Origin: Chelativorans intermedius
Lineage (GTDB): Bacteria; Pseudomonadota; Alphaproteobacteria; Rhizobiales; Rhizobiaceae
Direction of reading: 5' to 3'
Assembly: GCF_025398255.1 (NCBI RefSeq)
Contig: NZ_JAODNW010000022.1
Location: 1-64,000, forward strand
DNA length: 64,000 nucleotides
Shown: positions 19,971 through 37,072 of the stretch, piece by piece
How positions within the stretch are numbered: the stretch's first letter is position 1
Layout: the number at the start of each line of letters is the position of its first letter
Program-made: the position numbers and the translations under genes
Notes under the pieces: model-generated
Told to the model about the DNA's origin: nothing
What the model saw: the letters and a program-made list of their open reading frames with translations, nothing else
Databases searched by the model: none

Positions 19971-20757
19971 GGGTGCTCTACCCGCGCGCCAAGCAGGCCC
20001 TCGACCGGCTGAGCCGGCTCCTCGACCATCCTCGTGGCACGCGCATGCCGTCGATCGCGATCTATGGCGACAGCGGCATGGGCAAGACCATGATCATGAG
20101 CCGGTTCCGAGACGAGCATCCGCCGAGCTTCAATCCTCTGACGGGCACGTTGAAGACACCGGTCCTCGCTATGGAAATGACCAGCCCGCCGGGCGAGCGG
20201 CGCTTCTATGCCGAACTGCTCACCCTACTTGGTGCCCCACAGCGGCCACGCGCTGACATCGCCCAAATGGAGCAGGCCGCATTGCGGATCATGGAAGCGA
20301 TCGGCGTGCAGGTGCTGGTCATCGACGAAGTGCACAACATCCTCGCCGGGACCTATCGCGAGCAGCGCATCGTTCTGAACACTCTGCGCTTCCTCAGCAA
20401 TCGTCTGCAGATCTCGCTCGTCTGCTTCGGCGTCAACGAGGCACGGGAGGCGATAGCGGCGATGTCCAACTCGCCCGACGGTTCGAACAGTTGACCTTGA
20501 GCCGGTGGGCCGCCAACGATCAGTTCGAGACGTTGGTGGCCTCGATCCTGCGCAATACGCCGCTGCGTCGGCCCTCGGTGCTCACCCCGAAATCGCTGCG
20601 CCGGATCCTGCAGATCACCGAGGGGATCACCGCCAACATCTTCCACATGATCAACAGCCTTGCGGTCGACGCTGTCGAGAGCGGCCGCGAGCACATCACT
20701 GACGAGATGGTTGAGAATTGCGAGCCGGAATTCGATGCCGAGGCTGCGTCCGCATGA
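19971..20757 (+). pseudogene. tniB: TniB-type AAA+ ATPase, 5'-truncated and frameshifted
   Basis: Begins within the gene at WVLYPRAKQALDRLS. Walker A is GDSGMGKT and Walker B is VLVIDEVHN. A frameshift near 20455 breaks the protein at NEAREAIA; the sense resumes as GDVQLARRFEQLTLSRWAAN and runs to the TGA at 20755. TniB recruits the transposase to target DNA. Truncation plus frameshift make it inactive. Confidence 0.82.
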
Positions 20758-21620
20758 TGAAGGAGACCGTTCCACGGCGGTTGCCGGTAGTCTTGCCGCA
20801 CCACTCAGACGAACTTCTGTCATCCTGGATCGGTCGACATGCCGCCTTCTATGGCGTCCCGCCACTCGTCATGCTGCAGCATTGCTTGTCGGAAGTCAGC
20901 TCGCTGCGCGCCGCCGACCTCCACATGAGCTATGATCAGGAGTTCCGCCTGGCCAACATGTTCGCTACCGAACGGGACGTGGTGCGGCGCATGACCTTCA
21001 CCAATGTCGCGCAATCAGCGCACCGGTTCATCTCCGCCCGGCCGACGCAGGTCTGTGCGAGTTGCAGTCCGGGACATAGGAAGCCGGAGCCGATCCTGCG
21101 CAGCCAGCTTCTGGGGTGGCGCATTACGTGCCCCTTGTGCGGAGGCCAGTTCCGGCAGGCCGTCGGGCAAAAACTCCCCTCCCCTTTCCGGCAAAATCGC
21201 GTTGCTGCTCTTCATGGCGAAAAGCTGCTGGATGACGAAGCCGAACGTGGTGTCGCAACCTGGACATCCCCGGCCGAGATTGCCCGGCTCCTCCTGATGC
21301 GGCGCGTGCCGAGACCCTTTCCGCGCGAGCACGATCTTTGGCGCTTCAGGGTGCTCGGCGCGATCATTCCGGATTTCGACCATGTCGTCGCCCAGCAACA
21401 GGAGAATCTGCCCTCCCCCGCAAAGCCAATCTTGCCGCTTCACCTACGGCCGGCACTGCTCGCCGGCGTTGCCATCGTCGAGCGTGCCGGACCGGAGATG
21501 CTCCGAATGCTGCGCGGTCACATGATGGGACAGAACAGGGTCCGTTTCATTGACGCCGCCGAGAACATGATAGCCCGCGCATCCGGACCGCCGGTATCTC
21601 CGCAGATGCACTTAATTTGA
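20754..21620 (+). CDS. tniQ: TniQ-family transposition protein
   Basis: 288 residues (287 from the second ATG at 20757). Start [20 protein letters not shown], zinc-ribbon type cysteines in VCASCSPGH and CPLCGG, then a helical C-terminus. The ATG overlaps the tniB stop (ATGA). TniQ proteins assist target choice or resolution in Tn7-like elements. The last codons extend into the right-end repeat. Bases 20781-21580 recur almost exactly at 35027-35826. Confidence 0.85.
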   Translation: MMKETVPRRLPVVLPHHSDELLSSWIGRHAAFYGVPPLVMLQHCLSEVSSLRAADLHMSYDQEFRLANMFATERDVVRRMTFTNVAQSAHRFISARPTQVCASCSPGHRKPEPILRSQLLGWRITCPLCGGQFRQAVGQKLPSPFRQNRVAALHGEKLLDDEAERGVATWTSPAEIARLLLMRRVPRPFPREHDLWRFRVLGAIIPDFDHVVAQQQENLPSPAKPILPLHLRPALLAGVAIVERAGPEMLRMLRGHMMGQNRVRFIDAAENMIARASGPPVSPQMHLI

Positions 21621-21655
21621 GAATGGGCTCGTCGAAATTCTCAAATTAAGTGCTC
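21609..21655 (-). repeat. right transposon end
   Basis: Exact unit at 21609-21624 in the direct sense and its inverted copy at 21637-21652. The latter lies within the outer 19-bp inverted repeat 21637-21655. The first unit overlaps the last codons of tniQ. Confidence 0.8.
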
Positions 21656-21812
21656 AGCTCGACCCGAGCCGGCGCATTCTTGCGTTTAAGTGGCAAGCGA
21701 CAGCTCTTGCGCGGCGGGGTTCCGCATTAGCATGAGGAGCGCGCACTATCGCTCATTGGTCGCCCAAGCAGTGACACATCGAGGAGCGCCATTCTCAATG
21801 CCCCGCGCGCCC

Positions 21813-22367
21813 CTACCGCTTCTGAACGGAACTCATCGACCTCACCGGCCAAAAGGAGCCTGCGATCAGCAAGACGACGCCGATCGTTATCATCGTGTCC
21901 GCCATGTTGAAGGCCGGCCAGTGCCAGCTGCCGACGTGGAAATCGAGGAAATCAGTCACGGCACCTTGGCGCATCCGGTCCAACACATTGCCGCTAGCGC
22001 CGCCGGCAATCAGGCTAAGACTAATGGTCTCCGTTTGCTTTGGCGTTCTCATCGCCCAGACCAGAAGTCCGGCCACGATCACCACCTTGATTCCGGCGAG
22101 CACCATTGGGCGATCGAGGAAGAGCTCACGGAACATCCCGAAGCTGACACCTGTATTGAAGCCGAGTGTCAGGTTGAAAAATGGCGCGATCGCGATCGTG
22201 CGCGGCGGCACCATCACAACATTGAGGATCAGCCATTTCGTGAGAAAATCGACAGCAAGCGCGGCAGCTAGAACACCAGCTGCCAATATAGCTCGTCGAA
22301 TCAGGCTCGGGTACACCACGCTTAATCGGTCCTTCTCTTGTCGGCGATTTTTCTGCGGGCAGTCCAT
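21813..22367 (-). CDS. lspA: lipoprotein signal peptidase LspA
   Basis: 184 residues with four membrane helices and both catalytic aspartate motifs: GNVLDRMRQGAVTDFLDF and FNMADTMITIG. It cleaves the signal peptide of lipid-modified prolipoproteins at the inner membrane. Extra lspA copies are often found directly downstream of cadA/czcA-type ATPases, as here (31 bases). A GTG 16 codons in is an alternative start. Confidence 0.93.
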   Translation of the reverse strand: MDCPQKNRRQEKDRLSVVYPSLIRRAILAAGVLAAALAVDFLTKWLILNVVMVPPRTIAIAPFFNLTLGFNTGVSFGMFRELFLDRPMVLAGIKVVIVAGLLVWAMRTPKQTETISLSLIAGGASGNVLDRMRQGAVTDFLDFHVGSWHWPAFNMADTMITIGVVLLIAGSFWPVRSMSSVQKR

Positions 22368-22398
22368 TTATGCTCGCTCGCACCGATGCGGTCTTGAG

Positions 22399-25300
22399 CT
22401 ACGCCGGGACCGTCGCGGTGATGCTCGGGCCCTGCTGCTGGTGCGCCGAAACGCCGATGCCGCTGGATGGGCCACCCTTTTGAGTGCTGGTTTGATCACG
22501 GTTGAGCAGGCGCAGGCCGTTGAGAACAACCAGCAGAGACGCACCGACGTCCGCCGCGATAGCACCCCAAAGCGATGCGAGACCAACCACCGTCAGCGCT
22601 GTGAACAGGAGCTTCACGGCGATCGAGAAGGCAACATTCTGCCGGATAACGGCGAGTGTTGCGCGCGAATGGCGCACTAACCAAGAAAGTTTCGACAAGT
22701 CATCCGACATGAGGGCCACATCGGCCGTTTCAATGGCGGCGTCGCTGCCCATGGCGCCCATGGCGATGCCAAGATTGGCACGCCCCATAGCGGGAGCATC
22801 GTTGACTCCGTCGCCGACCATAGCTACCGATCCATAGCGCCGCACCAAATCTTCGACCGCCGCCACCTTGTCGCCCGGCAGAAGTTCCGCCCGAACCTCA
22901 TCAATGCCCGTCTGCTTCGCAATCGCCTCCGCGGTCGCGCGATTGTCTCCCGTGAGCATCACAACGTGTTCAATGCCGGCGCGGTGAAGCGCCGTGACAA
23001 TGTCCTTCGCTTCCGGCCTGACAGCATCGGCAACGGCGACGAGCCCGCAGACTTCTTGACCATCGCCGACCGCAACGATGGTGCGACCGGCGCTCGAAAG
23101 CTCATCTGCCAGTTGCAGAACTTCAGTAGAGTTTATGCCACGCTCCTCAATGTAGCGGCGCGAGCCGAGCCACATCTCGCGGCCGGCCACTCGCCCGATG
23201 ACGCCTCGGCCAGTGATGGCTTGAACAGCCTCGGCAGGCTCGGAGGCGATCTTCAGTTCGGCGGCTTTCGCGAGGATGGCGCGAGCGATCGGATGCCCGC
23301 TGCGCGCCTCCAGGGCCGCAGCCAAGCCGAGGAGCTCCATTTCGCTGCGGTCTCCAAGCGGCACTATCTCGACGACCTGCGGCCGCCCTTCGGTGAGCGT
23401 GCCCGTTTTGTCCATAGCAATCGCCTTGAGGTGCGCAGGCGTTTCGAGATGGGTGCCGCCCTTGACCAGAACGCCCTGCTTGGCCGCGCCGGCGAGGGCC
23501 GCGACGATCGTCACCGGCGTGGAAATAACGAGCGCACAGGGGCAAGCGATGACGAGGAGCACGAGAGCCCGATAGAACCAGACGTCCCAGGCGCCGCCCA
23601 AAAGCAAGGGCGGAGCGAGAAAAATCGCAACGGCGAGTACCATTACGATGGGCGTGTAAACACGCGCGAATTTCTCCACCCATTGCTCACTTGGCGCGCG
23701 CCGGCTCTGCGCCGAACCGACCATGCGGATGATTTGGGCGAGCGTCGTGTCATTCGCCGCTTTGGTGGTCACGACCTCAATTGCGCCCTCGCCGTTGATG
23801 GTCCCGGCAAAGACTTCGTCGCCCTCTGCCTTGAATACGGGGACGCTTTCACCGGTGATCGGTGCTTGGTTGACCTCACTCTCGCCAGCGGCAACCCGGC
23901 CGTCGAGCGGCACCTTGTCTCCTGGCCGGACTATGATATGCGCGCCGACCCGAACCTCTGCCGGAGGGACGTCGCGCTCGGAGCCATCCTCGAGCTTAAC
24001 GCGTGCTGTCGGCGGCGCGAGTTCCATGAGGGCGGCAACCGCCCGGCGCGCGCGACCAAGACTCCAAGCCTCGAGCGCCAGCGCTAGTGCAAAAAAGAAC
24101 GAAACAGTAGCAGCCTCGAACCAGGCGCCGATGCCGATCGCGCCCGCGACCGCAACCATCATCAGCAGGTTCATGTCGGGGCGAAGCCGCTTGGCCGCGA
24201 GCCAGGCCTTGGGAGCCACATAGCGCGCCGCACAGAGCACCGCAACCGCATAAAGAACCATGCTCGGCAATGGGGTCGAGCCCAAACCGTGTTCGCCAGC
24301 CTCGAACGCCGCGATGACACCGCCCCCAAGCCAGGCGTGGACCCCAAACGCCAGCGCCGTGAGCACGCCGCTTGCGGTTGTCAGCCACGACTGCACCTGC
24401 TTGCGGCGCTCTTCGGCCTGAGCGGCATCGCTAGAAGCGCCTTCAGTCCAGGGCTCGGCGCGGAGACCGGCACGAGCCACGGCCTTTTCGACACGAGCTT
24501 CGAGTACGGGATCCGGCGTCACATCAATCGACATGCGGCCGTTGAGAAGATCGAAGGCGAGCTTGTCTTCCCCAACCAGCGGACCGACCTCGCGCTTCAG
24601 GGCCGCGATCTCGTCGGCGCAATCCATGCCGTGAATGCGAAACACGACCTGGCCGGGCAAGTGGGTCGGGATCGGCGGACTTAACGCCTCCTGCACCTCG
24701 GCACCGCAGCCGCATGCCGAGTCTGGCACTGTAGCGGATTCGAGTGAAGCGGACGATACTGTTGGCGGCGTCCACGGTTCTGCGCGCATGCCCGTCCGAG
24801 CCACGGCTTGCTCAATCGAGTCAGCTCGCGCCCGGCCCTGGGGGGCAACCGTCATCATGCCTTGCATGGTGTCGAAGGCGAGCTTGTCCTCGCCAACGAG
24901 CGGGCCCAGTTCCCGCGTGAGGGCCGCCACCTCGTTCTTGCAATCAAGCCCGTGGACGCGGAACAGCAGCGCGTCGGCCGTATCGTGCTCTACGAGAGAA
25001 GCACGCATGCCAGTCGCGGCAACGCGGCCGGCGATTTCCTCAACTGTCGTTTGCCGTTGGGGCGCGACCGTCATCAGCCCCTTCGCCGTGTCGAACGACA
25101 GCCAGGCGTCGCTCCCGACCAGCGGACCAACCTCACGCTTGAGCACGGCCACTTCGTTCTTGCAATCGAGCCCCTCGACCCGGAACAGCAGCGTCGGCAG
25201 TGGCTGCTGCGCCCGCTGCCGTAGGAGATGTGCCTGCATGCCGGTCGTCGCGACCGCCTGCTGGATGACGTCGATCGACGAAGCATTTTCGGATGTCACC

Positions 25301-25461
25301 ACCATGACACCCGCTTGAGTATTGAATGACAGCTTGTCGTCACCGCCGACAAGTGGGCCCACCGCCGCACGAAGCGCACGCACCTCATTCTGGCAATCGA
25401 GGCCATCGACTTTGAAGCGCAGCGAGCTGGGACTGCTCATCGTTGCGGCATCAACATTCAT
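22399..25461 (-). CDS. cadA: Zn/Cd/Pb-type P1B ATPase with four N-terminal HMA-like repeats
   Basis: 1020 residues. Four tandem HMA-like repeats at about 15-80, 92-158, 165-230 and 273-338. Each has a single cysteine in a DCxxE pattern (GLDCQNE, GLDCKNE twice, GMDCADE) instead of CxxC. An extra CGCG sits at 250-253. The ATPase core follows with CPCALVISTPV in the channel, [19 protein letters not shown] and [10 protein letters not shown]; the CPC context is the P1B-2 (Zn2+/Cd2+/Pb2+) type. It exports divalent soft metals. The ATG at 25461 follows CAGGAG. A MerR-type promoter lies 60 bases upstream. Confidence 0.94.
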   Translation of the reverse strand: MNVDAATMSSPSSLRFKVDGLDCQNEVRALRAAVGPLVGGDDKLSFNTQAGVMVVTSENASSIDVIQQAVATTGMQAHLLRQRAQQPLPTLLFRVEGLDCKNEVAVLKREVGPLVGSDAWLSFDTAKGLMTVAPQRQTTVEEIAGRVAATGMRASLVEHDTADALLFRVHGLDCKNEVAALTRELGPLVGEDKLAFDTMQGMMTVAPQGRARADSIEQAVARTGMRAEPWTPPTVSSASLESATVPDSACGCGAEVQEALSPPIPTHLPGQVVFRIHGMDCADEIAALKREVGPLVGEDKLAFDLLNGRMSIDVTPDPVLEARVEKAVARAGLRAEPWTEGASSDAAQAEERRKQVQSWLTTASGVLTALAFGVHAWLGGGVIAAFEAGEHGLGSTPLPSMVLYAVAVLCAARYVAPKAWLAAKRLRPDMNLLMMVAVAGAIGIGAWFEAATVSFFFALALALEAWSLGRARRAVAALMELAPPTARVKLEDGSERDVPPAEVRVGAHIIVRPGDKVPLDGRVAAGESEVNQAPITGESVPVFKAEGDEVFAGTINGEGAIEVVTTKAANDTTLAQIIRMVGSAQSRRAPSEQWVEKFARVYTPIVMVLAVAIFLAPPLLLGGAWDVWFYRALVLLVIACPCALVISTPVTIVAALAGAAKQGVLVKGGTHLETPAHLKAIAMDKTGTLTEGRPQVVEIVPLGDRSEMELLGLAAALEARSGHPIARAILAKAAELKIASEPAEAVQAITGRGVIGRVAGREMWLGSRRYIEERGINSTEVLQLADELSSAGRTIVAVGDGQEVCGLVAVADAVRPEAKDIVTALHRAGIEHVVMLTGDNRATAEAIAKQTGIDEVRAELLPGDKVAAVEDLVRRYGSVAMVGDGVNDAPAMGRANLGIAMGAMGSDAAIETADVALMSDDLSKLSWLVRHSRATLAVIRQNVAFSIAVKLLFTALTVVGLASLWGAIAADVGASLLVVLNGLRLLNRDQTSTQKGGPSSGIGVSAHQQQGPSITATVPA

Positions 25462-25520
25462 CAGTATCTCCTGCTGTCCAAATCGAGCTCGGCTCCCGAG
25501 CGTTCACGTCACTCTTGTGA

Positions 25521-25551
25521 ACCATACATCCTGTAGCCACTACAGAATCAA
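25521..25551 (-). promoter_or_regulatory. MerR-type (CadR/PbrR/ZntR) metal-responsive promoter of cadA
   Basis: Read on the minus strand: -35 TTGATT, then a 19-bp spacer containing the perfect dyad CTGTAG-TGG-CTACAG, then -10 TATGGT. The long spacer and the dyad between the boxes are the hallmark of MerR-activated promoters. The same dyad and -35 recur at 31027-31057. Confidence 0.88.
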
Positions 25552-25882
25552 GGCTGCGTCGCGGCGAAGATTGATCCATAGACGTCTTGCGTGGCAGACG
25601 GCGCCTTTACGCACGCGCCAGCCAAGTATCGCCCGGCAAGTTGGAGGGATAATTGATGCGCTCGTGGCAGCGCACGATCTCGGCGTCTAATCTCGGGCGC
25701 GGGATTCGCCGGACCAGCCCTCGCGTATTGGCTCCAGTGCTACGGCTTCGTTCCCACCGTAGATTCAGCTCAAGGATTATATGACTCTTTGTGAGCAAGC
25801 CGCGTCAAGGAAGGGTGCGGAGGAAGGCGCACACACCGAGAAAACTACAAGGCTCGGCTAATCTAAACCTTTTTTGCTGCTC
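25552..25882 (-). other. intergenic region between P450 gene and cadA promoter
   Basis: 330 bases. A frame at 25607-25798 on the minus strand encodes an unfamiliar 63-residue peptide with no convincing ribosome site. I see no supported gene and no terminator with a T-run. Confidence 0.4.
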
Positions 25883-27130
25883 TTAGCTTTCCCTGACATT
25901 CCTGATCACAAAACTGCTACGCGGCAGTGCGGGCAGCCGCGACCAGTCAATCCGCAGGTCTTGCTGCGGCACCTCGTAGCTCATGCGTCGCGTGAGGAAA
26001 TCCGCCGCCAGCTTCATCAGTTCAATCGCGATCCATTCGCCGGGACAGCGATGATTGATGTGGTGGTCCCCTCCACCCTGCGGAACGAAATTGAATGGGC
26101 TCTCATCCCACCGGCGGAAACGCTCGGGCTCGAATTCCTCCGGCCTCTCCCACGTTCGCGCGTCCTGATTGGTCCCGTATAGGTCAAGGATCACGCGTCG
26201 ACCTTCGGGGATCTGGTATCCGTTCCACTCGAAGGTTTGGCGCGTCTGTGCAGCGACTGCCGGGAAGAAGGGATAGTAGCGGCGAACCTCCTGGACGAAG
26301 CGATAGGCGTAGCCGTCATTATCGGCCTGAAGCCCCTTTCGGACTTTGGGATGTGCATGCAGAGCATGGGCAACGAAGACGATATAGACGGAAACAGCGA
26401 CCGTCGGCCTAATCACATTGATCAGTTCGACCGCTGCAAGGTTCGGGACCAAAAGTTCGCCGTTCAAATCCTGGTGCCACGCAATGACGTGGGCGGCGGA
26501 TTGCTCCGGTGGGTGGATACGGCCGCTACGGATCTGTTCGACGATACCCGCCGCCCAGCGGTCGGCCCGTTTTCGGGCCCACCGCGACAACAAATGCCGA
26601 AGTCCGACCGAACCCGCATGGTCGAACAGGGCGGCAAGGTCTCGGGTTCGCGCCTCGACATCAGAATCTGCCAGCGGCACGCCGGCCCAGGCGCAGGCCG
26701 CACAGGTCAGAAGCGCGTGGAGCTCTGGATAGAGCACCACTTCGTCCATTGATCCCCACCGGCGCACTCGGGTCTGCCATTCCGTCGCGGTCAGCTGCAC
26801 GAGTCGTTCAATGCGCTCGGCTGTCATCAGCGACATGAACATCTGCTTGCGGTGTCGGTGGGCTTCGTCGTCGAGGCCCTGCACGCCACCGACCCCGAGC
26901 AACGTCTTCTGGACCGCCTTAGGCATCGCACCGCGGCGTACGAAGCGGCCCGGATCGTAGAACAGCCGGGCCGCTTCCGGGCCAGTCATACAGAGGGTCT
27001 TTCGCAGCAGAAGCCGCGCTTCAAACAGGTCCGATCGGTAGCTCCGACACCGATTTGAGATAAATCTATAGGGATCACCCGTCAGGGCGATTGTCGAGTC
27101 CAGGCTTCTGTCACGGGGAATCCGGGGCAT
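25883..27130 (-). CDS. CYP152-family cytochrome P450 (fatty-acid peroxygenase)
   Basis: 415 residues. The heme loop FVPQGGGDHHINHRCPGEWI holds the thiolate cysteine. NVIRPTVAVS in the I-helix has the arginine that binds the fatty-acid carboxylate and replaces the usual acid-alcohol pair. These are CYP152 hallmarks. Family members use H2O2 to hydroxylate (alpha or beta) or decarboxylate long-chain fatty acids, with no redox partner; none is encoded nearby. The ATG at 27130 follows TTTGGAGAG; an extended frame to 27193 is less likely. It appears to be the distal gene of the metal-regulated ligase/CDF run. Confidence 0.9.
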   Translation of the reverse strand: MPRIPRDRSLDSTIALTGDPYRFISNRCRSYRSDLFEARLLLRKTLCMTGPEAARLFYDPGRFVRRGAMPKAVQKTLLGVGGVQGLDDEAHRHRKQMFMSLMTAERIERLVQLTATEWQTRVRRWGSMDEVVLYPELHALLTCAACAWAGVPLADSDVEARTRDLAALFDHAGSVGLRHLLSRWARKRADRWAAGIVEQIRSGRIHPPEQSAAHVIAWHQDLNGELLVPNLAAVELINVIRPTVAVSVYIVFVAHALHAHPKVRKGLQADNDGYAYRFVQEVRRYYPFFPAVAAQTRQTFEWNGYQIPEGRRVILDLYGTNQDARTWERPEEFEPERFRRWDESPFNFVPQGGGDHHINHRCPGEWIAIELMKLAADFLTRRMSYEVPQQDLRIDWSRLPALPRSSFVIRNVRES

Positions 27131-27214
27131 TGCGGCTCTCCAAATCCCGTTCGGCGAGATCCTCCGGCCTCCTAGAGGCAAACGCGTGGCCACAGGTCCA
27201 CGGGAGACCTTGGG

Positions 27215-27841
27215 TCATCCCCTGTCTCCCTGTGCAGAATCGCGGGCTTCGCGCGCCTCCTTGAGAATCTCCCACCCCCCTTTGAGGACGATTCCGACGA
27301 TCACAACCCCGATCACGAGATCGGGGACGGGAGACTTCAGGAACATCACCAAGAGACCGGAAAGGACGATGCCAGCGTTGGCCAGCATGTCGTTCGTCGT
27401 AAAAATCCACGACGCCTTGAAGTGCACACCATGTGCACGATGAGCTCGCAAGAGGCGAAGGCAGACCACGTTGGTCGCCGCGTTCGCAAGCGCCGTGATA
27501 ATCATGGCGACCCCGATTGGCTCGGCTCCCGCGAAAAAACGACGTAAGACTTCTATAAGCAATCCGAAGGCAAGGAGGATCAGAAGAATGCCGGACAGTT
27601 TTGCGGCATGCGCCTTGGCAACGACCGTGCGGCCGACTGCATAGAGACTGACTGCATAGACGGCGGCATCCCCCAGATTGTCGAGGGCGGCGCCTAGCAG
27701 GCCCGTGGAATCCGCCAGGATGCCAACGGCCCCAGCTACCAAAACCTGTGTAAAATTAATCCCTAGTACCCAGCGCAGCGTGCGTCGTTCCGCGACATTT
27801 TGAGCATCGAGGCGGATCTCAGTCTCTTCGTCACCTGGCAT
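27215..27841 (-). CDS. cation diffusion facilitator family transporter
   Basis: 208 residues with six helices. The second and fifth helices carry the metal-site residues of the family (AALDNLGDA and TTNDMLANAG). A short His-containing loop (HRAHGVHFKASW) links helices 4 and 5. The C-terminal cytoplasmic domain is almost absent (family members often have about 300 residues), so it belongs to the short CDF type. It would exchange a divalent cation for protons. Metal identity is unknown; the context of a CadR-type promoter suggests Zn, Cd, Pb or Co. Confidence 0.85.
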   Translation of the reverse strand: MPGDEETEIRLDAQNVAERRTLRWVLGINFTQVLVAGAVGILADSTGLLGAALDNLGDAAVYAVSLYAVGRTVVAKAHAAKLSGILLILLAFGLLIEVLRRFFAGAEPIGVAMIITALANAATNVVCLRLLRAHRAHGVHFKASWIFTTNDMLANAGIVLSGLLVMFLKSPVPDLVIGVVIVGIVLKGGWEILKEAREARDSAQGDRG

Positions 27842-27888
27842 GGTTCATGTCCGGCTCTCTGAGGGGGCGTCGTACTCAGTCGTGCTCG

Positions 27889-28086
27889 TCATCTTTTGAC
27901 CCAGGCGTAGTATACGAGCAGCAGAAGAATGATCGCCCAAACGACAACAGCGCTCGTGTTAAGCCGCTGGTCATAGGTGATCCCAAACAGACTGAACTGA
28001 ATGCCCGCAGTGGCTAAGGCTCCATGAGTGAGCACCTGGTTGGCGGCAAAGCCGGCGAAAAATTTGGTTACTTCCTTTCCCTTCAT
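27889..28086 (-). CDS. small membrane protein
   Basis: 65 residues starting MKGKEVTKFFAGFAANQVLT with a C-terminal helix SAVVVWAIILLLLVYYAW. The ATG at 28086 follows GGGAGACTGTCG; the frame upstream is Arg/Ser-rich and overlaps the preceding gene. It sits between the ligase pseudogene and the CDF gene in the same direction. Unknown function. Confidence 0.7.
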   Translation of the reverse strand: MKGKEVTKFFAGFAANQVLTHGALATAGIQFSLFGITYDQRLNTSAVVVWAIILLLLVYYAWVKR

Positions 28087-28108
28087 CGACAGTCTCCCTG
28101 AAACCGAT

Positions 28109-29455
28109 TCACGTGCGGGTGCCCGAGAGCGGAATGACTTGCCTAACCTTACCGCCCTTGGACTGTTCCGGCGGCTCCTCGGCACGCTCGATCGACACCT
28201 GGTGGAGTTCGTTGCTGTCGAGCAAATGCTTTAATTCGCCGTGTACCCTTTGCCAAACCTGGCTGGGGTCAGCGCCCGACTCAAAGCGCAGGCGTACGCG
28301 CAGGTTCGTCGGCGGGTCTGCACGACCTGGGACAGATCGACTCCCGGCACGTGATCGATCTCGAACGCGAGTGGCGGAATCGAGACCTCCTCGCCGGCTT
28401 GGGTCGGAAACCGGAGGACCTCTGCGGAGCGTCCCTGGATGCGGATCGCGGGCAAGGGATTGCCGCAGGGGCAAGGATCCGGCCTTTGCAGGACGCGGTC
28501 GCCGAGATCGTAACGGAGGATCGGCTGCACCCGGTTTGCGAGATTGGTCACCAGCACGGTATGCGACTGCTCGCCCTGAGAGACGGGACGGAAATCGGCA
28601 TTCATCGGTTCGAGGATAATCCAGTCTCCAACGACGTGAAGCCATCCCTCGGTGCAGCTGTAGGTCGGGCCACCGATCTCGGTTGAGCCCTATGTGTTGC
28701 CGACCTTTGCGCCGAAGGCCTTGGCGATCCGCCCGTACTCTTCTTCCGCAAGGTCCCTCGGCCGTAACCACCAACAACACCGGCTTGATGCGCAGCCGTC
28801 CAAGTTCCTGCTCGCGAGTCAGCAGAGAGGCGGTAGAGGCGTAGCCTAGGACAACAGCTGGGCGGAACTCATTGAGGCCGTTGACGAGTTCCCTTATCGG
28901 CGCGTCCACCGAGAAATCGCGAGTGAGTTTCGCCAAAACCCGGCTGGAGCGCCGCGCCCGAGTGAAACCCGTAACCGAAACGAAATGACCGCCGGTGGCG
29001 TGCAGGGCCGCAAATCGCGCGCCGCGCAGAACAATCCGTACAACGTCCCCGAGCGACAGCCAGGTTCTGAACGCTTCTCGGAGGCCGGATGTCCCGCCTC
29101 GCATGTGATTGTCATCCAATATGAAGATGCCCGGTTTGCCCGTCGTGCCGGCGGTCGTGGCGACCAAATATTTCCCGAGGAGCATTTCGCCGACGAGGCT
29201 CGGATCTTCGATAAACTTACGCACGCGCTCAATCGTGACCTTGCGATCCGTCACCCAGCTATCGAAGTTTGCCATGAGCGTCTTCTTGTCAGTGACAGGC
29301 AACAGGCTGGGGTCCTCGACCCTCGCGGGCACGTTCTTGTACAGATCGCGATAATAGGGAGAGTTGCCTCGCGCAAAGGCTACGATATCGGCAAGCCTCT
29401 CCTTCACCTTCTCCGGCTTCCGGGAAGCAGATTCCCACAGGGGACGCTGGCTCAT
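28109..29455 (-). pseudogene. PaaK/coenzyme F390 synthetase-like ligase, disrupted paralogue
   Basis: The first half reads well from MSQRPLWESASRKPEKVKER, with the nucleotide motif TAGTTGKPGIFIL. A frameshift near 28763 follows VTAEG. In the new frame a TAG at about 28690-28692 interrupts GNT-stop-GSTEIGG, where a Tyr codon is expected. The sense continues (NLANRVQPILRYDLGDRVLQ, PCPCGNPLPAI) and a second frameshift near 28310 returns it to the first frame for the C-terminus. AAGGAG precedes the ATG, so the gene was once functional. Its intact paralogue lies directly upstream. Confidence 0.85.
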
Positions 29456-29627
29456 GAGCCTTCTCCTTGTTTTCCGGGCTAGGCCGCACCCATTTCAGGG
29501 CTATCTGGTCGGACAACGGATCAATAAATCGAAGCGACCCCACCACATTCTGATTCTGGGCAACCATACTCGAACCCTTCTTCAATCGGTCGTCGAATGA
29601 CGGAAGCGGTCGCGTTCACTAGTTCGA

Positions 29628-30989
29628 TCATCCTCTTAGCGGAACCACCTCCCGGAATTTCCCGCCGCGACCCTGTTCCGGCGGTTCGTCGCCGCGCTCG
29701 AGCGTGACGTGTTTGAGCCCATGCTCGGCAAGCACCTTCCGCAGGCCTTCTTCGGCCTCGCGCCAGACGGTGTCTGCATTCGCCGTCGGCGCAATTTGCA
29801 GACGCATCTCAAGTGTCACGGGGGCCGTCTGCGCGAGCTGAAAGAGCGTGATGCCGCGAACGGCCTCGATGCGCTGGGTGAGCGCCAGCGGAGGAAGCCT
29901 GACCTCGCCCGTCGAAACGCGAAAAGTGAGGACGTCTGCGGAGCGGCCCTGTACGCGGATCGCGGGCAAGGGATTGCCGCAGGGGCATGGATCGGGCCGC
30001 TGCAGAACGCTGTCGCCGAGATCGTATCGCAGGATCGGCTGCACGCGATTGGCGAGATTGCTGATCAGGACCGTGTGCGACTGTTCGCCTGGAGGGACCG
30101 GGCGATAGTCGGCGTCGACTGGCTCGAACGCCACCCAGTCGGCGTTGACGTGCAGCCAGCCTTGGTCGCACATGGCGCTCATAAACATACATTCCGAGGC
30201 GGCGTAGCTGTTGCCGACCTTGGCATTGAATACGCGCGCAATTCGGCCGTATTCCTCCTGTGGCAGACCTTCGGCCGAGAGGGCCAGCAGCACGGGATTG
30301 ATGTGGAGCCGGCCGGCTTCCTGCTCGTCCGCGAGCATCGCGGCCATGCTGGCATAAGGGGCAAGCAGCGCAGGCTGAAACCGGTTCAGCCGCGCGACAA
30401 GTTCCGCCATTGGCATATGTGCCGATAGCACTTCGACGCGGCTGCCGCGCCGCTTCTTCAGGCGCGTGGCGGCAACCGCTGACGCGAAGTGGCCGCCGGT
30501 TGCCATCACCATTGCCATCCGCCCGCGGCGGGCGACGATTTTGGCGAAGTCGCTCGGTCCGAGCCAGTAGCCCACCCAGCGGAGCATCATGGCAGTCACG
30601 ACCGCCATCGTGCGATCATCGACGAGAAAGATGCCGCGACGACCGGTCGTGCCGGAAGTGGTCATCACGGTGTATTTTCCGAGGAACCACTCTCCAATCC
30701 GGCTGCGATCATCGACGAGCGCCTCTACAGCCTCGAGCGTGACGGCGCGGTCGGTGCACCATTCGTCGAAGCGCCCCATGAGCATCTTCTTGTCGGTGAC
30801 CGGCAATTGGCGCGGATTCTCGATGCGATCCGGCAGATCGCGATAAAGCCCACCGTAGAATGGCGAGCGAGCCCGCGCATAGGCTACCATGTCGACGAGA
30901 CGCCTCGTCTGCCGAGCCGCGAGCGCCTCGCGCCCCTGGCGCTTAGCGCGCCAGGCGTCCCAGATTAGGCCCACGACATGCTTGGTCAT
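29628..30989 (-). CDS. adenylate-forming ligase, PaaK/coenzyme F390 synthetase-like
   Basis: About 453 residues. TSGTTGRRGIFLV is the ATP-binding P-loop of acyl-adenylate enzymes; ILRYDLGDSVL and the metal-binding-like PDPCPCGNPLP are typical of the phenylacetate-CoA ligase / F390 synthetase group. The family activates a carboxylate or phosphate-linked substrate with ATP; the substrate here is unknown. It is the first gene after the MerR-type promoter at 31027-31057. The ATG at 30989 is likely; a GTG at 31010 next to GGAGGT would add seven residues. Confidence 0.85.
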   Translation of the reverse strand: MTKHVVGLIWDAWRAKRQGREALAARQTRRLVDMVAYARARSPFYGGLYRDLPDRIENPRQLPVTDKKMLMGRFDEWCTDRAVTLEAVEALVDDRSRIGEWFLGKYTVMTTSGTTGRRGIFLVDDRTMAVVTAMMLRWVGYWLGPSDFAKIVARRGRMAMVMATGGHFASAVAATRLKKRRGSRVEVLSAHMPMAELVARLNRFQPALLAPYASMAAMLADEQEAGRLHINPVLLALSAEGLPQEEYGRIARVFNAKVGNSYAASECMFMSAMCDQGWLHVNADWVAFEPVDADYRPVPPGEQSHTVLISNLANRVQPILRYDLGDSVLQRPDPCPCGNPLPAIRVQGRSADVLTFRVSTGEVRLPPLALTQRIEAVRGITLFQLAQTAPVTLEMRLQIAPTANADTVWREAEEGLRKVLAEHGLKHVTLERGDEPPEQGRGGKFREVVPLRG

Positions 30990-31026
30990 AATCGTTCTCG
31001 GTTCACACACCTCCGGTTAATTGCTA

Positions 31027-31057
31027 TATCTACTTCCTGTAGCCACTACAGAATCAA
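31027..31057 (-). promoter_or_regulatory. second MerR-type metal-responsive promoter, for the ligase operon
   Basis: On the minus strand: -35 TTGATT, 19-bp spacer with the dyad CTGTAG-TGG-CTACAG, and -10 TAGATA. The 23 bases from -35 through the dyad and next two bases match the cadA promoter. The divergent merR ATG (31064) lies only six bases beyond the -35, so bound regulator would also cover its own start region. Confidence 0.88.
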
Positions 31058-31063
31058 CCCCGG

Positions 31064-31519
31064 ATGATCACTATCGGAGCCTTGTCCAAACGCACGGGCG
31101 TCAATATCGAGACGATCCGCTATTACGAGCGGATCAGACTCATACCCCCGCCGCCCCGAACCGACAGTGGGCGACGCCTCTACGGAGCGGAGGATGTTCG
31201 ACGGCTGACGTTCATTCGCCATGCCCGGGATCTCGGCTTCGACATCTCCGCCATCAAGACGATGCTCGCTCTGCAGGGGGTACCCGAAGCTTCCTGCGAG
31301 CAGGTAAGCCAGATCGCGACCGATCAGCTTGAGGCCGTCGAGAGCCGAATCCGCCGTCTACTGGGGCTTAGAACCGAGCTCACCAGGATGATTAAGGAGT
31401 GCGACAACGGGAGAGTCGCGACTTGCAGGATTATCGAAGTTCTCTCCGACGCTCCCGGCGATCCGGACGCCCAATCAGATCGGCCAGAACGAAAATTGCG
31501 ACGCCGCGGCATAAGCTAG
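31064..31519 (+). CDS. cadR: MerR-family Cd/Pb/Zn-responsive regulator (CadR/PbrR type)
   Basis: 151 residues. DNA-binding domain MITIGALSKRTGVNIETIRY, long dimerisation helix, and three cysteines at the CadR/PbrR positions: SCEQV (near 78), KECDNG (near 112) and ATCRI (near 119). This arrangement binds Cd2+/Pb2+/Zn2+, unlike the CueR-type protein at 1692. It is divergent from the ligase operon and is the only such regulator beside the two matching operators, so I infer it controls both that operon and cadA. No strong ribosome site precedes the ATG. Confidence 0.9.
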   Translation: MITIGALSKRTGVNIETIRYYERIRLIPPPPRTDSGRRLYGAEDVRRLTFIRHARDLGFDISAIKTMLALQGVPEASCEQVSQIATDQLEAVESRIRRLLGLRTELTRMIKECDNGRVATCRIIEVLSDAPGDPDAQSDRPERKLRRRGIS

Positions 31520-31699
31520 ATTGAAGGCTGGCGAATGGCGGCCCATTCAGTGCTCCTTGTCCTTGTTTGCACACGGCATCTGACAGCTTCGACCCCGTGA
31601 CAACTTGTTGTGGCAGTCGGTGGCGCCGCGGAGTAAGGCGTTCCTATGAAGGGGCATTTGGCCCCGGGCCAGCAGGACAGCGATGGGGTACACGAGGGG

Positions 31700-31840
31700 G
31701 GGGGCGATTTGGCCGCGCCTTGGCCTCGTAGGAGTAGCAATCACGACGGCGATCGGCTCGCCGCAGCGACGGTTCAGCAGTTGCTCGACCGATGCGTAGA
31801 AGGCATCGAGATCAGCATGGAGGATTGTGGCGGGTCATAT
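31700..31840 (-). pseudogene. dinB: remnant of a DinB-type Y-family DNA polymerase, N-terminus
   Basis: A short stretch reads ILHADLDAFYASVEQLLNRR then CGEPIAV, the first catalytic motif of DinB-type polymerases. After a frame change near 31735 the sense resumes as SYEAKAR. Nothing of the rest of the gene (about 350 residues in the family) was found. It lies just past the stop of the dnaE2 pseudogene in the same direction. Confidence 0.7.
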
Positions 31841-31849
31841 CCATTCTTC

Positions 31850-34800
31850 CTACCGGAAATCCCGTGTCTTCACCTTGATACGGTCGATATGCTCGTAGGG
31901 ATCGACGATATCGCGTGCTTTCGTCATGCCGCGCGGATCGATGCCCGAACCGCCATGTTGGGCCTCGTCACCGCGGCCGTGCGGCAATGGAAACGGCGCT
32001 TCGCGGTTTCCGACGCTTGCCAGCTCGGCCGACAAATCGGTCAGCTCATGGGCGACGAGATGCACGACCTCGCCCTCGCGCTGGATGCGTCCGCGCACGC
32101 CGAGCATGGCCGACGAAAGCAGAACGCGCCGGAATTTCTCGAACACCTTGACCCAGACGACGACGTTTGCGGCTCCCGTCTCATCCTCCATGGTGAGGAA
32201 CATCACGCCCTTGGCCGAGCCCGGCCGTTGCCGGACCAGCACCAGGCCTGCAGCCTCGAGCCAGCTTCTGTCTCGCGCCTGCATGGCTTCCTGACAGGTC
32301 ACGATGCGGCGCCGGCGAAGATCGGCGCGGAGGAAGGAGACGGGGTGGCTACGTAGGGTCAGCCCGACATGGCCATAATCCTCAACCACCTCGCGGCCGG
32401 CCGTCACGGGCCTGAGTGCGATGGGAGGCTCATGTATCTCCGGCACGGTTTTCTGCTCACGAGAAGTAGCGGCCGCAAACAGGGGCAACGGTTCATCGCG
32501 TAGAGCCTTGATGGCCCAGAGCGCTTCACGGCGGGCAAGGTTGAGATCCGGCAGAAAAGTGTCGGCTTCGGCGAGTTGCACAAGCGACGCCGCCGGCACC
32601 CCGGCGCGGCGCCAGATATCGTCGACCGAGGCGAAGGGCTCGTCGGCCGGCGCCGCGACGATCGCGGCCGCGTCATCATTGGCGAGGCCTTTCACCATGC
32701 GCAGGCCGAGGCGGACAGCGAAGCGATCTTCGGCATCGGTCTGCTCGAGCGTGCAATCCCAGCAGCTGGCATTGACGCAGACGGGGCGCACCTCGACGCC
32801 ATGATCGCGTGCGTCACGCACGATCTGGGCCGGCAGATAAAAGCCCATCGGCTGCGAGTTTAAGAGCGCCGCACAGAACACATCCGGATGCCAGCATTTC
32901 ATCCAGGAGGACGCGTAGGCGATCAAGGCGAAGGAGGCGGCGTGGCTTTCGGGAAAGCCGTAGCTGCCAAAGCCTTCGAGTTGCGAAAAGGTCTTTTCGG
33001 CAAACTCAGGGGTGTAGCCGTTGGCGATCATGCCGTTGATCAGCTTGTCACGGAATTTTGAGACACCGCCGGTGTGCTTGAAGGTGGCCATGGCGCGCCG
33101 CAACTGGTCGGCCTCGCCGGCGGAAAAGCCGGCGCAGACCATGGAGACTTGCATTGCCTGCTCCTGAAACAGCGGCACGCCGAGCGTCTTGCCGAGAACG
33201 CGCTCCAGCTCCGGTGTCGGAAACGTCACCTCTTCCTTCCCGTCGCGCCGGCGAAGATAGGGATGGACCATGTCGCCCTGGATCGGTCCCGGACGGACGA
33301 TCGCGACCTCGATGACCAGGTCGTAGAAGGTACGCGGCTTCATGCGCGGCAGCATCGACATCTGCGCGCGGGATTCAATCTGGAACACGCCGAGCGTGTC
33401 GGCCTTCCTGATCATGGCGTAGGTGCGCGGATCCTCGGCCGGGATCGTAGCCAGGTCGAGTGCGATGCCCTTATGCTTGGACAGGAGAGCGAATGACTTC
33501 TTCATGCAGGTAAGCATGCCCAGGGCCAGGACATCCACCTTCATGAATTTGAGGGCGTCGATGTCGTCCTTGTCCCATTCCACCACCTGGCGGTCCTTCA
33601 TCGCCGCCGGCTCGATCGGCACGAAGTCGTCAAGCCGATCGTGAGTTCTGCGAGGACAGCAGCTTTGTCATGTCCTCGGGCAGGCCGAGCGCCTTGCCGA
33701 CATCGCGGACGGCACCCTTGGTCCGGTAACGGATGACGGTGGAGCAAAGTGCTGTGTGATTGCGGCCGTAGGTTTCATAAACCCACCGCATGACGATCTC
33801 GCGCCGTTCATGCTCGAAATCGACATCGATGTCGGGCGGCTCGCGCCGCTCCTGCGAAACGAACCTCTCGAACAGAAGGTTGTTGCGTTCGGGGATCGAC
33901 GGAGGTGATGCCGAGCACGTAGCAGACGGCAGAATTGGCGGCCGAACCGCGGCCCTGGCAAAGGATGTCCTGGCTGCGGGCGAAGCGAACGATCGAGTTA
34001 ACAGTGAGAAAGTACGGTGCGTATTGAAGCGTCTCGATCAGCCGCGGCTCGTGCTTCAGGATGCCGACCACCTTGTCCGGCACGCCCTCGGGATAGCGGC
34101 GGGCGGCGCCTTCCCAGGTAAGCTTTTCCAGCGCCTGCTGGGCGGTGAGGCCCGGCATCGTCTTTTCCTCCGGGTATTGGTAGGCGAGTTCGTCGAGCGA
34201 GAAACGGCAGCGGTCGGCGATTTCGACCGTGCGCGCCAGGGCCTCAGGATAGCGGCTGAACAGCCGCGCCATTTCATCGCCCGGTTTGAGGTAGCGATCG
34301 GCATGACGTTCGCGCCGGAAGCCGGCGTCATCGATGGTGACGTTGTGGCGAATGCAAGTGACCACGTCCTGCATCATGCGGCGGGCCGGCTCGTGGAAGA
34401 GCACATCATTGGTGACGACGCCCGGCACGCCCATCGCAGCCGTCAGGTTTGCCAGCTCGTAAAGCCGGAGCTGGTCATTCGGGCGCCTGCGCAAGGTGAG
34501 CGCCATATAGGCCCGATCGGAAAAGGCGTCGCCCAGCCGCCGCAGGCGAATGGCGCAAAGGCCATCGGCTTCGTCCGGCACCAGGACCGCGATCAGTCCC
34601 TCGCCATAGGCGACGACATCATCCCATTCGAGATGGCATTTTGCTTTGCCGGTCCTGCCTTGCCGAGTGACAGCAGCCGGCAGAGGCGCGAATAGGCCTG
34701 CCGGTCCATGGGATAGGCCAGGATCGACATGCCGTCGGCGAGATAGAGACGGCAGCCGACGATCAGCCGGATGCCTGTCGTCTTCGCCGCCTCGTGGGCG

Positions 34801-34868
34801 CGTACAATCCCGGCAAGCGAATTGCGGTCGACGATGGCGAGCGCTTCGATGCCCAGCAGTGCCGCCTG
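31850..34868 (-). pseudogene. dnaE2: error-prone DNA polymerase DnaE2, 5'-truncated with several frameshifts
   Basis: The C-terminal 590 codons (from about 33622) are open: [39 protein letters not shown], ending [10 protein letters not shown]. Upstream the gene needs three frame changes: near 34663 (one base lost after LCRLLSLGK), near 33891 (one base gained after VLGITSVDP) and near 33650 (one base gained at [12 protein letters not shown]). About 50-70 expected residues are absent between THDRLDDF and VPIEPAAM. The 5' end stops at [12 protein letters not shown], so the first PHP-domain residues are gone at the junction with transposon DNA. Family role: translesion synthesis in the SOS response. 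Confidence 0.9.
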
Positions 34869-35842
34869 GCGACCACCGGGCCAGCCGCGCTTCGGCGGCC
34901 ATATCGAGCGTCTGATCGGCACACAGATGGGGAGGCTGCATCTGCTGCCTGGAACGACATTCAGCAACGAGCAGGATATCGGTGACTACAATTCGAAGCG
35001 GCACGCGGCACTGACACTGCGGGAGCTTGCCGGTAGTCTTGCCGCACCACTCAGACGAACTTCTGTCATCCTGGATCGGTCGACATGCCGCCTTCTATGG
35101 CGTCCCGCCACTCGTCATGCTGCAGCATTGCTTGTCGGAAGTCAGCTCGCTGCGCGCCGCCGACCTCCACATGAGCTATGATCAGGAGTTCCGCCTGGCC
35201 AACATGTTCGCTACCGAACGGGACGTGGTGCGGCGCATGACCTTCACCAATGTCGCGCAATCAGCGCACCGGTTCATCTCCGCCCGGCCGACGCAGGTCT
35301 GTGCGAGTTGCAGTCCGGGACATAGGAAGCCGGAGCCGATCCTGCGCAGCCAGCTTCTGGGGTGGCGCATTACGTGCCCCTTGTGCGGAGGCCAGTTCCG
35401 GCAGGCCGTCGGGCAAAAACTCCCCTCCCCTTTCCGGCAAAATCGCGTTGCTGCTCTTCATGGCGAAAAGCTGCTGGATGACGAAGCCGAACGTGGTGTC
35501 GCAACCTGGACATCCCCGGCCGAGATTGCCCGGCTCCTCCTGATGCGGCGCGTGCCGAGACCCTTTCCGCGCGAGCACGATCTTTGGCGCTTCAGGGTGC
35601 TCGGCGCGATCATTCCGGATTTCGACCATGTCGTCGCCCAGCAACAGGAGAATCTGCCCTCCCCCGCAAAGCCAATCTTGCCGCTTCACCTACGGCCGGC
35701 ACTGCTCGCCGGCGTTGCCATCGTCGAGCGTGCCGGACCGGAGATGCTCCGAATGCTGCGCGGTCACATGATGGGACAGAACAGGGTCCGTTTCATTGAC
35801 GCCGCCGAGAACATGATAGGCCGCGCGGATGGGCCTAGGTGA
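34869..35842 (+). mobile_element. rearranged TniABQ transposon fragment inside dnaE2 sequence
   Basis: 34870-35026 encodes the C-terminal part of a TniA transposase ([28 protein letters not shown]). It is joined directly, out of frame, to tniQ sequence from 35027. 35027-35826 repeats 20781-21580 with one visible mismatch (35820). No terminal repeats are present. dnaE2 sequence flanks both sides, but from two different dnaE2 genes. This is a recombination scar, not a clean insertion. Confidence 0.85.
35027..35842 (+). pseudogene. tniQ: tniQ second copy, lacking its start
   Basis: Open for 271 codons from a TTG but without the first ten codons or a ribosome site, and ending in chimeric residues GRADGPR at a TGA in the dnaE2-like flank. 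Otherwise identical to the copy at 20754. Probably not expressed. Confidence 0.8.
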
Positions 35843-36112
35843 GCCGTGATGGACCTCGTCGCCGCGCCCATGCGGCACCGGGAATCCCGCCTCCCGCGAA
35901 CCGACGCTGGCAAGCTCGGCAGAAAGATCGGTGAGCTCCTGCGCCACGACGTGCACCACGTCCCCTTCGCGCTGGATGCGGCCCTTGACGCCGAGCATGG
36001 CGGACCCGAGCACGATGCGCCGGTACTTTTCAAAGACCTTGGTCCAGACCACGAGATTGGCGACCGCGGTCTCGTCCTCGAGCGTGATGAACATGACGCC
36101 CTTGCGCGCCAT
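35827..36112 (-). pseudogene. C-terminal fragment of a second, different dnaE2
   Basis: Reads ARKGVMFITLEDETAVANLV, LGVKGRIQREGDVV and GRGDEVHHGSPRPI. It corresponds to [19 protein letters not shown] and onward in the neighbouring dnaE2 but differs at many residues, so it comes from a paralogue or another lineage. Both ends are cut: the 3' end at the tniQ scar and the 5' end near 36112. Confidence 0.85.
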
Positions 36113-36384
36113 GTGGCGATAGGAGAGGATCGCAGTTCAATCTTTGTCATCTCATGACGTCGCGCGACGATGTGATGGAGTTCACCAATCGGGCGCGGGC
36201 TATTCGGCGCTGGGCCTCGTAGCAGGCAATGACCGCGTCGGCTGCGTCTCCTTCCGCGTCAGAGATGGATGCCCGCAAGGGCGAAGACCCGATCCCCGGG
36301 ACTTCGGCTCTGTCGACAGCCCGGCTCCACCAGAAGGACGCCCCCCTCCTCGCCAGAACGTCGAGGTGAGGCTATCATCGCCTC

Positions 36385-36978
36385 ATGTGCAATGCCTACG
36401 AACAGCATGTGAAGTGGGTGGAATACACCCGAATGATGCAGGAGCTCGAGCTGGGCATACCGACCCAGCAGACGGAGCTCGACTTACCGCAGTCTGACAT
36501 GGTGCGGATCAACGACATGGCGCCGGTGATGCGGCCCGCCGGCAATGGCGTTGAACTGGTGCAGATGAATTTCAGCTTTCCGCCTGGCCGGCCGAAGGGC
36601 GGACCGGTGTTCAACTTCCGGTCGGAGGGTCGGGATTTTTCCAAGAGCCTGCGCTGCCTGATACCGGCATCGGGCTTCTTCGAATATGTCGGCACGAAAT
36701 ATCCCAAGACACAGTACCGGTTCAACCTGACCGGCGCGCCGTTTCTGGCGATCGCAGGACTCTGGCGCGAGGCGGAGGGCAATTATCCGGTCAGTTTCAC
36801 CATGCTGACCACGTCGCCGGGCCCCGACATCGCCCCGTATCATGATCGACAGGTGGTGGTGCTGAGGCCCCAAGACTGGGCTGCCTGGCTCTATCTGACC
36901 AAGCCGCAGGCAGAACTGCTGCAGCCGCTGCCGGAGGGTTCGCTCAAGGTCGATATGGTGCGCGAGGGCCGGGCATGA
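36385..36978 (+). CDS. SOS response-associated peptidase family protein (SRAP/YedK/HMCES)
   Basis: 197 residues. Cys2 (MCNAYEQHV) is the residue that crosslinks abasic DNA after Met removal. PASGFFEY and APYHDRQVVVL carry the conserved Glu and His. SRAP proteins shield abasic sites in single-stranded DNA. GAGGTGAGG lies upstream of the ATG. In alphaproteobacterial plasmids the family is often found near dnaE2/imu genes, as here. The 270 bases upstream hold no supported gene. Confidence 0.9.
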   Translation: MCNAYEQHVKWVEYTRMMQELELGIPTQQTELDLPQSDMVRINDMAPVMRPAGNGVELVQMNFSFPPGRPKGGPVFNFRSEGRDFSKSLRCLIPASGFFEYVGTKYPKTQYRFNLTGAPFLAIAGLWREAEGNYPVSFTMLTTSPGPDIAPYHDRQVVVLRPQDWAAWLYLTKPQAELLQPLPEGSLKVDMVREGRA

Positions 36979-37072
36979 GGTCGAGGCCAAGGGTATCCGC
37001 TGAAGGGTGTTTCGGTCTCTTTTCCCAGCGAAGGCTGAGGCATTGTTGTGGGCACGAAAGGAGACCTCTTCC

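Follow-up and report, generated by a model that had tools for sequence, protein, structure and literature searches.

A 64,000-nucleotide stretch of the Chelativorans intermedius genome (contig NZ_JAODNW010000022.1, positions 1 to 64,000; hereafter the window) carries a CadR/PbrR-like regulator gene, merR, beside one of two near-identical operators, which head an ATPase-lspA unit and a ligase unit. This locus is probably a metal-resistance regulon of the cad/pbr type to which an extra, conserved adenylate-forming enzyme arm has been added. In our best reading, this arm would often be accompanied by a methyltransferase in relatives and here by a fatty-acid peroxygenase. A preliminary description of this DNA had proposed that one metal signal controls both efflux and the enzymatic branch, and the comparison of related loci supports such a link through the operator boxes found in relatives, the conserved island that the box forms upstream of the ATPase, the cysteines of the regulator, and the loci with ArsR-type regulators.

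In minus-strand orientation, site 1 (25551 to 25521) has the sequence TTGATT-CTGTAGTGGCTACAGGATG-TATGGT and site 2 (31057 to 31027) the sequence TTGATT-CTGTAGTGGCTACAGGAAG-TAGATA. As the preliminary description had claimed, the two sites agree in -35 hexamer, 15-bp dyad (CTGTAGTGGCTACAG), and spacer length (19 bp), and both face leftward; 26 of 27 bases are identical over 25525-25551 and 31031-31057, and the -10 hexamers (TATGGT and TAGATA) are not alike. The divergent merR start lies 6 bp from the end of the site 2 -35 hexamer. CadR promoters are described as holding a palindrome inside mostly 19-bp spacers (excerpt of PMC1526738). In both sites a CadR/PbrR-type palindrome sits in a 19-bp spacer, a likeness of type and not a letter-by-letter match to a published CadR site.

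The window contains two matches to the operator box, where each of 10 simulated windows with the same dinucleotide frequencies contains none, and in the whole genome (4.18 Mb in 101 contigs) sites 1 and 2 are the only exact matches to TTGAYYCTGTAGNNNCTACAG. Allowing up to two mismatches adds three matches, one of which overlaps site 1 on the opposite strand, while a reversed-pattern control gives one match. On contigs C23 and C27, two of these additional boxes adjoin other CadR-like regulators, as expected of separate divergons. A chance likeness of the two operators was rejected on the simulated windows, the genome-wide match counts, and the conservation upstream of cadA. Conventional sigma-70 promoters were likewise rejected as drivers, as none with the usual spacer of 16-18 was found in 25400-31200 (mean of 1.7 in shuffles). 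No tandem repeats were found in 20000-37000.

The genome comparison covered the best 80 of 91 relatives' loci, and boxes with at most two mismatches were surveyed in 15 proteobacterial loci, excluding L007, a duplicate of L006. In this search for the dyad upstream of homologous ligases, which the preliminary description had suggested, 12 of the 15 ligases proved to have a box ahead of them, as did 10 of the 11 ATPases that these loci contain (one further ATPase-with-box row at the window's left end, an artefact of a start estimated beyond the window edge, was not counted). In L047, a thirteenth ligase is preceded by the exact dyad, the -35 hexamer being two bases off; the L083 ligase has a site three bases off; and the L055 ligase stands last in a gene run headed by a site three bases off. 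Other boxed genes in relatives encode FTR1/cytochrome c or methyltransferase proteins, BacA, CDF, and the small membrane protein, and several boxes precede genes left unnamed. Upstream of cadA in seven sequences, the box forms a conserved island in drifting DNA. Chelativorans multitrophicus DSM 9103 (L004) has the gene order of the window, with merR, a boxed ligase, CDF, P450, and a boxed ATPase-lspA unit. Box counts should be read with caution, as 217 of 5000 random pieces from the same box-rich loci also held a box.

In L005 (7464-9488), an FTR1 permease and a cytochrome c domain are fused to a methyltransferase in a PbrT-like protein with its own MerR box, and FTR1 or methyltransferase open reading frames (ORFs) related to it stand behind boxes in L003, L006, L009, L011, and L012. 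A zinc-ribbon (TFIIB-type) protein is encoded near metal genes in L034 (19594-19932), with similar ORFs in L009, L013, and L018.

The description of the regulator beside site 2 as CadR/PbrR-type stood in part. It is a MerR-family protein with three metal cysteines, Cys78, Cys113, and Cys121, which are present in all 16 of the alignment rows listed (11 of them non-duplicate relatives with at least 57% identity), and its nearest solved structure is that of CadR (6jgv). However, it scores 106.3 bits on the CadR-PbrR equivalog model TIGR02047, under the cut-off of 151.45, and is therefore named CadR/PbrR-like. None of the 10 matches to this model in its own genome passes the cut-off, nor does any in 14 control genomes.

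Leftward from site 2, the gene order is intact ligase, second ligase, small membrane protein, CDF transporter, and CYP152 P450. The intact ligase, for which relatives suggest an ATG start near 30989, matched no Pfam family and reached 126.5 of the 251.9 bits required by TIGR02304 (F390 synthetase-related); a name from NCBIfam was rejected, the score being under every cut-off. Its predicted structure (mean predicted local distance difference test score, pLDDT, 83.7) matches PaaK-family enzymes, including AjiA1, NatL2, PaaK1, and ClxA, at ~20% identity. Across 24 aligned relatives, the TSGTTG region, Glu273, Asp330, Asp333, and Lys451 are kept and S119 and G120 are nearly invariant. The protein has both the ANL motifs and the fold of a PaaK-like adenylate-forming ligase.

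In a tree of 81 ligase rows, built by a quick method, the window ligase falls inside a 47-row clade (Shimodaira-Hasegawa-like approximate likelihood-ratio test, SH-aLRT, 96), which was merged at 97% identity into 42 non-redundant rows, and genes within 10 kb were taken as neighbours. A P1B ATPase is found near 29 of these ligases, LspA near 21, ArsR near 17, MerR near 15, and CDF near 14. Among the rows with full flanks (at least 8 kb on both sides), a P1B ATPase accompanies 19 of 25 ligases inside the clade and 0 of 19 outside it (Fisher p 1.6e-7, a rough guide given that the rows are related). Six full-flank clade rows have no P1B ATPase, among which L008, L011, and L083 have a CDF transporter and other genes of the set. 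The P1B-linked rows, as named in the genome records, many of them metagenome assemblies, belong to Pseudomonadota, Actinomycetota, Chloroflexota, Planctomycetota, Acidobacteriota, Verrucomicrobiota, Nitrospirota, Myxococcota, and Caldisericota.

Clade ligases from other phyla occur with ArsR/SmtB-type regulators and P1B ATPases, so that the link is independent of any one promoter. Runs in one direction read ArsR-LspA-ATPase-ligase in L057, where ATPase and ligase overlap by one base as called, ArsR-ATPase-ligase in L054, and ArsR-LspA-methyltransferases-ligase-ATPase in L025. Near-identical ligases were also seen in Chloroflexi assemblies from separate studies, with groundwater and mine among their names (L025, L026, L059, L062, and L070), which may reflect a recent spread of the module or a single widespread lineage.

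Among 12 plasmids chosen from 75 records with a ligase match, a P-type metal/cation ATPase is annotated near the ligase in seven (L084, L085, L086, L088, L107, L108, and L110), and the unannotated L112 has a P-type ATPase-like ORF (29% identity) near it; L083 and L109 have a cation transporter instead, L111 has ArsR and LspA, and L087 has no metal gene. Plasmids with both a P1B ATPase and ArsR come from Rubrobacter tropicus, Mycolicibacterium, Arthrobacter, and Pseudonocardia. In L108 (Pseudonocardia) and L111 (Cytobacillus), ArsR faces a methyltransferase-ligase pair; in L109 (Rubrobacter marinus), the genes for ArsR, a cation transporter, a methyltransferase, and the ligase all point the same way. 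The methyltransferase stands directly ahead of the ligase in all three, with a four-base overlap in L108 and L109, and the ArsR/SmtB regulator is either upstream or divergent. The haloarchaeal ligase L107 (41% identity) is convergent with an ATPase.

Table 1 Predicted sites and genes of the two units in the window.
Feature	Coordinates	Strand	Basis
MerR-type promoter/operator 1 (predicted)	25521..25551	-	Upstream of P1B ATPase; conserved there in relatives
Parts of operator 1	-35, 25546-25551; dyad, 25531-25545; -10, 25521-25526	-	19-bp spacer
MerR-type promoter/operator 2 (predicted)	31027..31057	-	Upstream of ligase; conserved there in relatives
Parts of operator 2	-35, 31052-31057; dyad, 31037-31051; -10, 31027-31032	-	19-bp spacer
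CadR/PbrR-like MerR regulator, 151 aa, Cys78/Cys113/Cys121	31064..31519	+	TIGR02047, structure match, cysteines
PaaK/F390-synthetase-like adenylate-forming ligase, intact	29628..31010	-	TIGR02304, conserved motifs, PaaK fold
Second ligase gene, broken as assembled	about 28109..29455	-	Homology in frames -1, -2, -1
Small membrane protein, about 65 aa	27889..28086	-	11 aligned rows including the window; ORF listed from 28185
CDF-family cation transporter, 208 aa	27215..27841	-	PF01545, 54 bits
CYP152 fatty-acid peroxygenase	25883..27193	-	NF053744, 3awm, motifs
P1B-type heavy-metal ATPase (Zn/Cd/Pb type), 1020 aa, repeated N-terminal unit	22399..25461	-	TIGR01525, TIGR01512
Signal peptidase II (lspA), behind ATPase	21813..22367	-	PF01252, 120 bits; TIGR00077 above cut-off

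The other genes of the two units largely agree with the preliminary description (Table 1). Site 1 does stand in front of a Cd/Zn/Pb ATPase, which scores above the cut-offs of both TIGR01525 (601 bits) and TIGR01512 (510 bits); its N-terminal part holds a four-copy repeat at 24572-25424 (GLDCxNE/GMDCADE units), where Pfam sees one HMA domain only. In the ligase unit, family models bear out the CDF transporter and the CYP152 P450. The "run of ligases" proved intact in its first gene, but the second is broken as assembled: its three parts show 88, 92, and 79% identity to an intact relative (L003:11425-12774) and were recovered with four of six queries, the other two giving a single low-identity stretch. 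The small membrane protein is present but, judging by relatives (an alignment of 11 rows including the window, one of them a duplicate and one a fragment), has about 65 residues rather than 98; the label "membrane" reflects a hydrophobic sequence, judged by eye.

The P450, which likely starts at the methionine of MPRIP (about 27130), narrowly misses the cut-off of NF053744 (577.6 of 600 bits) and aligns with the fatty-acid alpha-hydroxylase P450-SPalpha (3awm) over almost its full length with 546 bits. It carries the RPTVAV and HRC motifs and, in this full-length CYP152 match, the Arg-Pro pair that replaces the acid-alcohol pair. The term "lipid-type" used earlier for these enzymes therefore has support for the P450 and none for the ligase.

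Two tniQ-like ORFs, recognized by eye at 20718-21620 and 35027-35842 on the same strand and ~14.2 kb apart, flank the whole island. They are 99% alike over a 300-nt register, and the pair looks like a transposon remnant or a recombination duplicate. Fragments of a DnaE-type polymerase, also recognized by eye, lie on the minus strand at 31850-35004 and 35690-36112. Past the tniQ copy stands a second, diverged DnaE C-terminal copy (75% over 262 nt), and the DnaE-type gene seems to be interrupted.

From what is known of the regulator's family, the locus could work as follows. Without metal, a MerR dimer would hold both overlong promoters shut; Cd(II), Pb(II), or Zn(II) bound by the three cysteines would make MerR twist the spacer, so that RNA polymerase starts at both. 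Judging by gene order, the ligase transcript would continue through the small membrane protein and CDF genes to the P450. The weakest step of this explanation is the chemistry proposed for the enzymes: the P450 would hydroxylate fatty acids using hydrogen peroxide, the level of which rises under metal stress; the ligase would activate a carboxylic acid as an adenylate; and in relatives a methyltransferase would complete the product. That product might be a modified membrane lipid or a small lipophilic ligand and would reduce the damage done by metal at the envelope, with the ATPase and the CDF transporter exporting the metal ion.

The usual account of Cd, Pb, and Zn resistance invokes pumps, sequestration, and precipitation. 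We tentatively propose, as a possibility held with less confidence than the regulon itself, that the ligases form a metal-switched PaaK-like clade dedicated to Cd/Pb/Zn resistance, making a protective lipid or metal-binding small molecule together with a methyltransferase or a fatty-acid peroxygenase, and that mobile islands have spread it over many bacterial phyla and perhaps to haloarchaea. If true, metal resistance would have a biosynthetic arm in addition to efflux and precipitation. That the ligase accompanies pumps in many phyla, beside two unrelated sensor families, suggests a molecule made or changed in answer to metal. The ligase, the methyltransferase, and the CYP152 enzyme offer a concrete gene set for such a product, and the operator could be used to find more members.

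Several observations weigh against a metal-controlled enzyme arm. The genome holds 10 matches to the CadR-PbrR model, so that another MerR could serve one of the sites; the second ligase is out of frame; and the fold matches of the first are distant (~20% identity). No methyltransferase of the relatives' type was seen within 10 kb of the window ligase. Within the clade, L037 has ArsR only despite full flanks, and six Bradyrhizobium-type rows (L023, L028, L030, L042, L044, and L087) show no metal genes in the available DNA, the flanks being short in three. A P1B ATPase also occurs in 3 of the 34 rows outside the clade, all three lacking full flanks, so that the link is not wholly confined to the clade. 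The trait is also rare: at strict E-values, the ligase was found in 3 of 201 related genomes and 2 of 398 genomes of the phylum, the source genome being counted in both. Besides this genome and G009, which is of the same genus and carries the same ligase, the matches are three loci (L116-L118; two in G407 and one in G189), none with the reference metal genes. The L116 and L117 ligases (54% identity, outside the tree) look similar, and these two and the Bradyrhizobium-type ligases, lacking nearby metal genes, probably serve another role. Finally, Zn/Cd RNA-seq of two Mesorhizobium strains found cadA, ccdA, lspA, and a putative CDF gene induced, and the tables in the excerpt of PMC3668242 list no ligase, which these genomes may or may not carry.

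Three other explanations were weighed, not all of them mutually exclusive or incompatible with the best one. The ligase and P450 genes might have hitch-hiked on a mobile metal island and picked up a copy of the cadA promoter, in which case they would be metal-induced with no role in resistance. The position of the island between near-identical tniQ-like copies, its sporadic presence among related genomes, the out-of-frame ligase, and the Bradyrhizobium-type ligases without metal genes would all fit. However, the metal linkage recurs over several phyla, with both MerR and ArsR regulators and in one-direction gene runs, and the core motifs of the ligase are kept over deep divergence, making this account unlikely.

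The arm could also change the metal itself, for instance by methylating lead or another metal, instead of making an organic protectant. Methyltransferases do pair with the ligase in ArsR-type loci, and the L005 methyltransferase is fused to a PbrT-like FTR1/cytochrome c protein. The methyltransferases paired with ligases elsewhere are of more than one kind. One, found near the ligase in Chloroflexi (L025:9178-9813 and L027:8687-9316), has three cysteines (Cys 32, 138, and 154), and the best-scoring model for the L027 protein is an arsenite methyltransferase model (66 of 263 bits), that for the L085 protein an ArsM/AhpD model (46 of 510 bits). Yet of the 10 methyltransferases examined, two have three cysteines, whereas six have a single one and two have two, fewer than the thiolate site of arsenite methyltransferases requires. 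For other methyltransferases the top model is CpaM or UbiE/MenG, all scores are far under cut-off, and it is not evident what a carboxylate-activating ligase would contribute to methylating a metal. We give this explanation little credence.

It is equally improbable that two different MerR proteins, the one in the window at the ligase and another CadR/ZntR-like one at cadA, serve the two sites with possibly different metal signals: several of the 10 model matches do lie beside other P1B ATPases, but the dyads of sites 1 and 2 are identical, the C23 and C27 regulators have their own adjacent boxes two mismatches off, and relatives repeat the box pair with a related MerR.

Among known systems, the cadR-cadA divergon of Pseudomonas is alike in its three-cysteine CadR-like MerR, 19-bp spacer promoter, and P1B ATPase. 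Here, however, merR diverges from the ligase instead of cadA, an enzyme gene stands behind a second box, and the regulator is under the equivalog cut-off. P. aeruginosa CadR also targets a non-transporter, a zinc-ribbon protein (excerpt of PMC12301328). The pbr operon of Cupriavidus metallidurans shares with the window a MerR regulator, a P1B ATPase, and LspA (as PbrC), and the boxed extras of relatives, a PbrT-like FTR1/cytochrome c protein and BacA, are pbr-like too. In contrast, the ligase, CDF, and CYP152 genes are absent from the pbr gene list (PbrT, PbrR, PbrA, PbrB, PbrC, and PbrD) in the excerpt of PMC1526738. PbrT-like and BacA genes do not stand near the window ligase: PbrT (FTR1) and a PbrB-like phosphatase were found in relatives but not in this locus, the whole genome gave only weak partial matches to PbrT, and no BacA match lies within 10 kb.

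The ligase resembles the PaaK-family AMP ligases (PaaK1, BT_0428, AjiA1, NatL2, and ClxA) and TIGR02304 proteins in fold and core motifs but differs from them by its low identity to the solved members, a score of half the TIGR02304 cut-off, and a clade largely tied to metal loci. The P450 resembles P450-SPalpha, which we take to be CYP152B1, in its almost full-length match and RPTVA motif but lies inside a metal-resistance island. Among the open-access matches listed, titles and the starts of abstracts held nothing linking the ligase to metal efflux. The predicted regulation of this locus is of a known kind, joined to an enzyme arm that is conserved and apparently undescribed.

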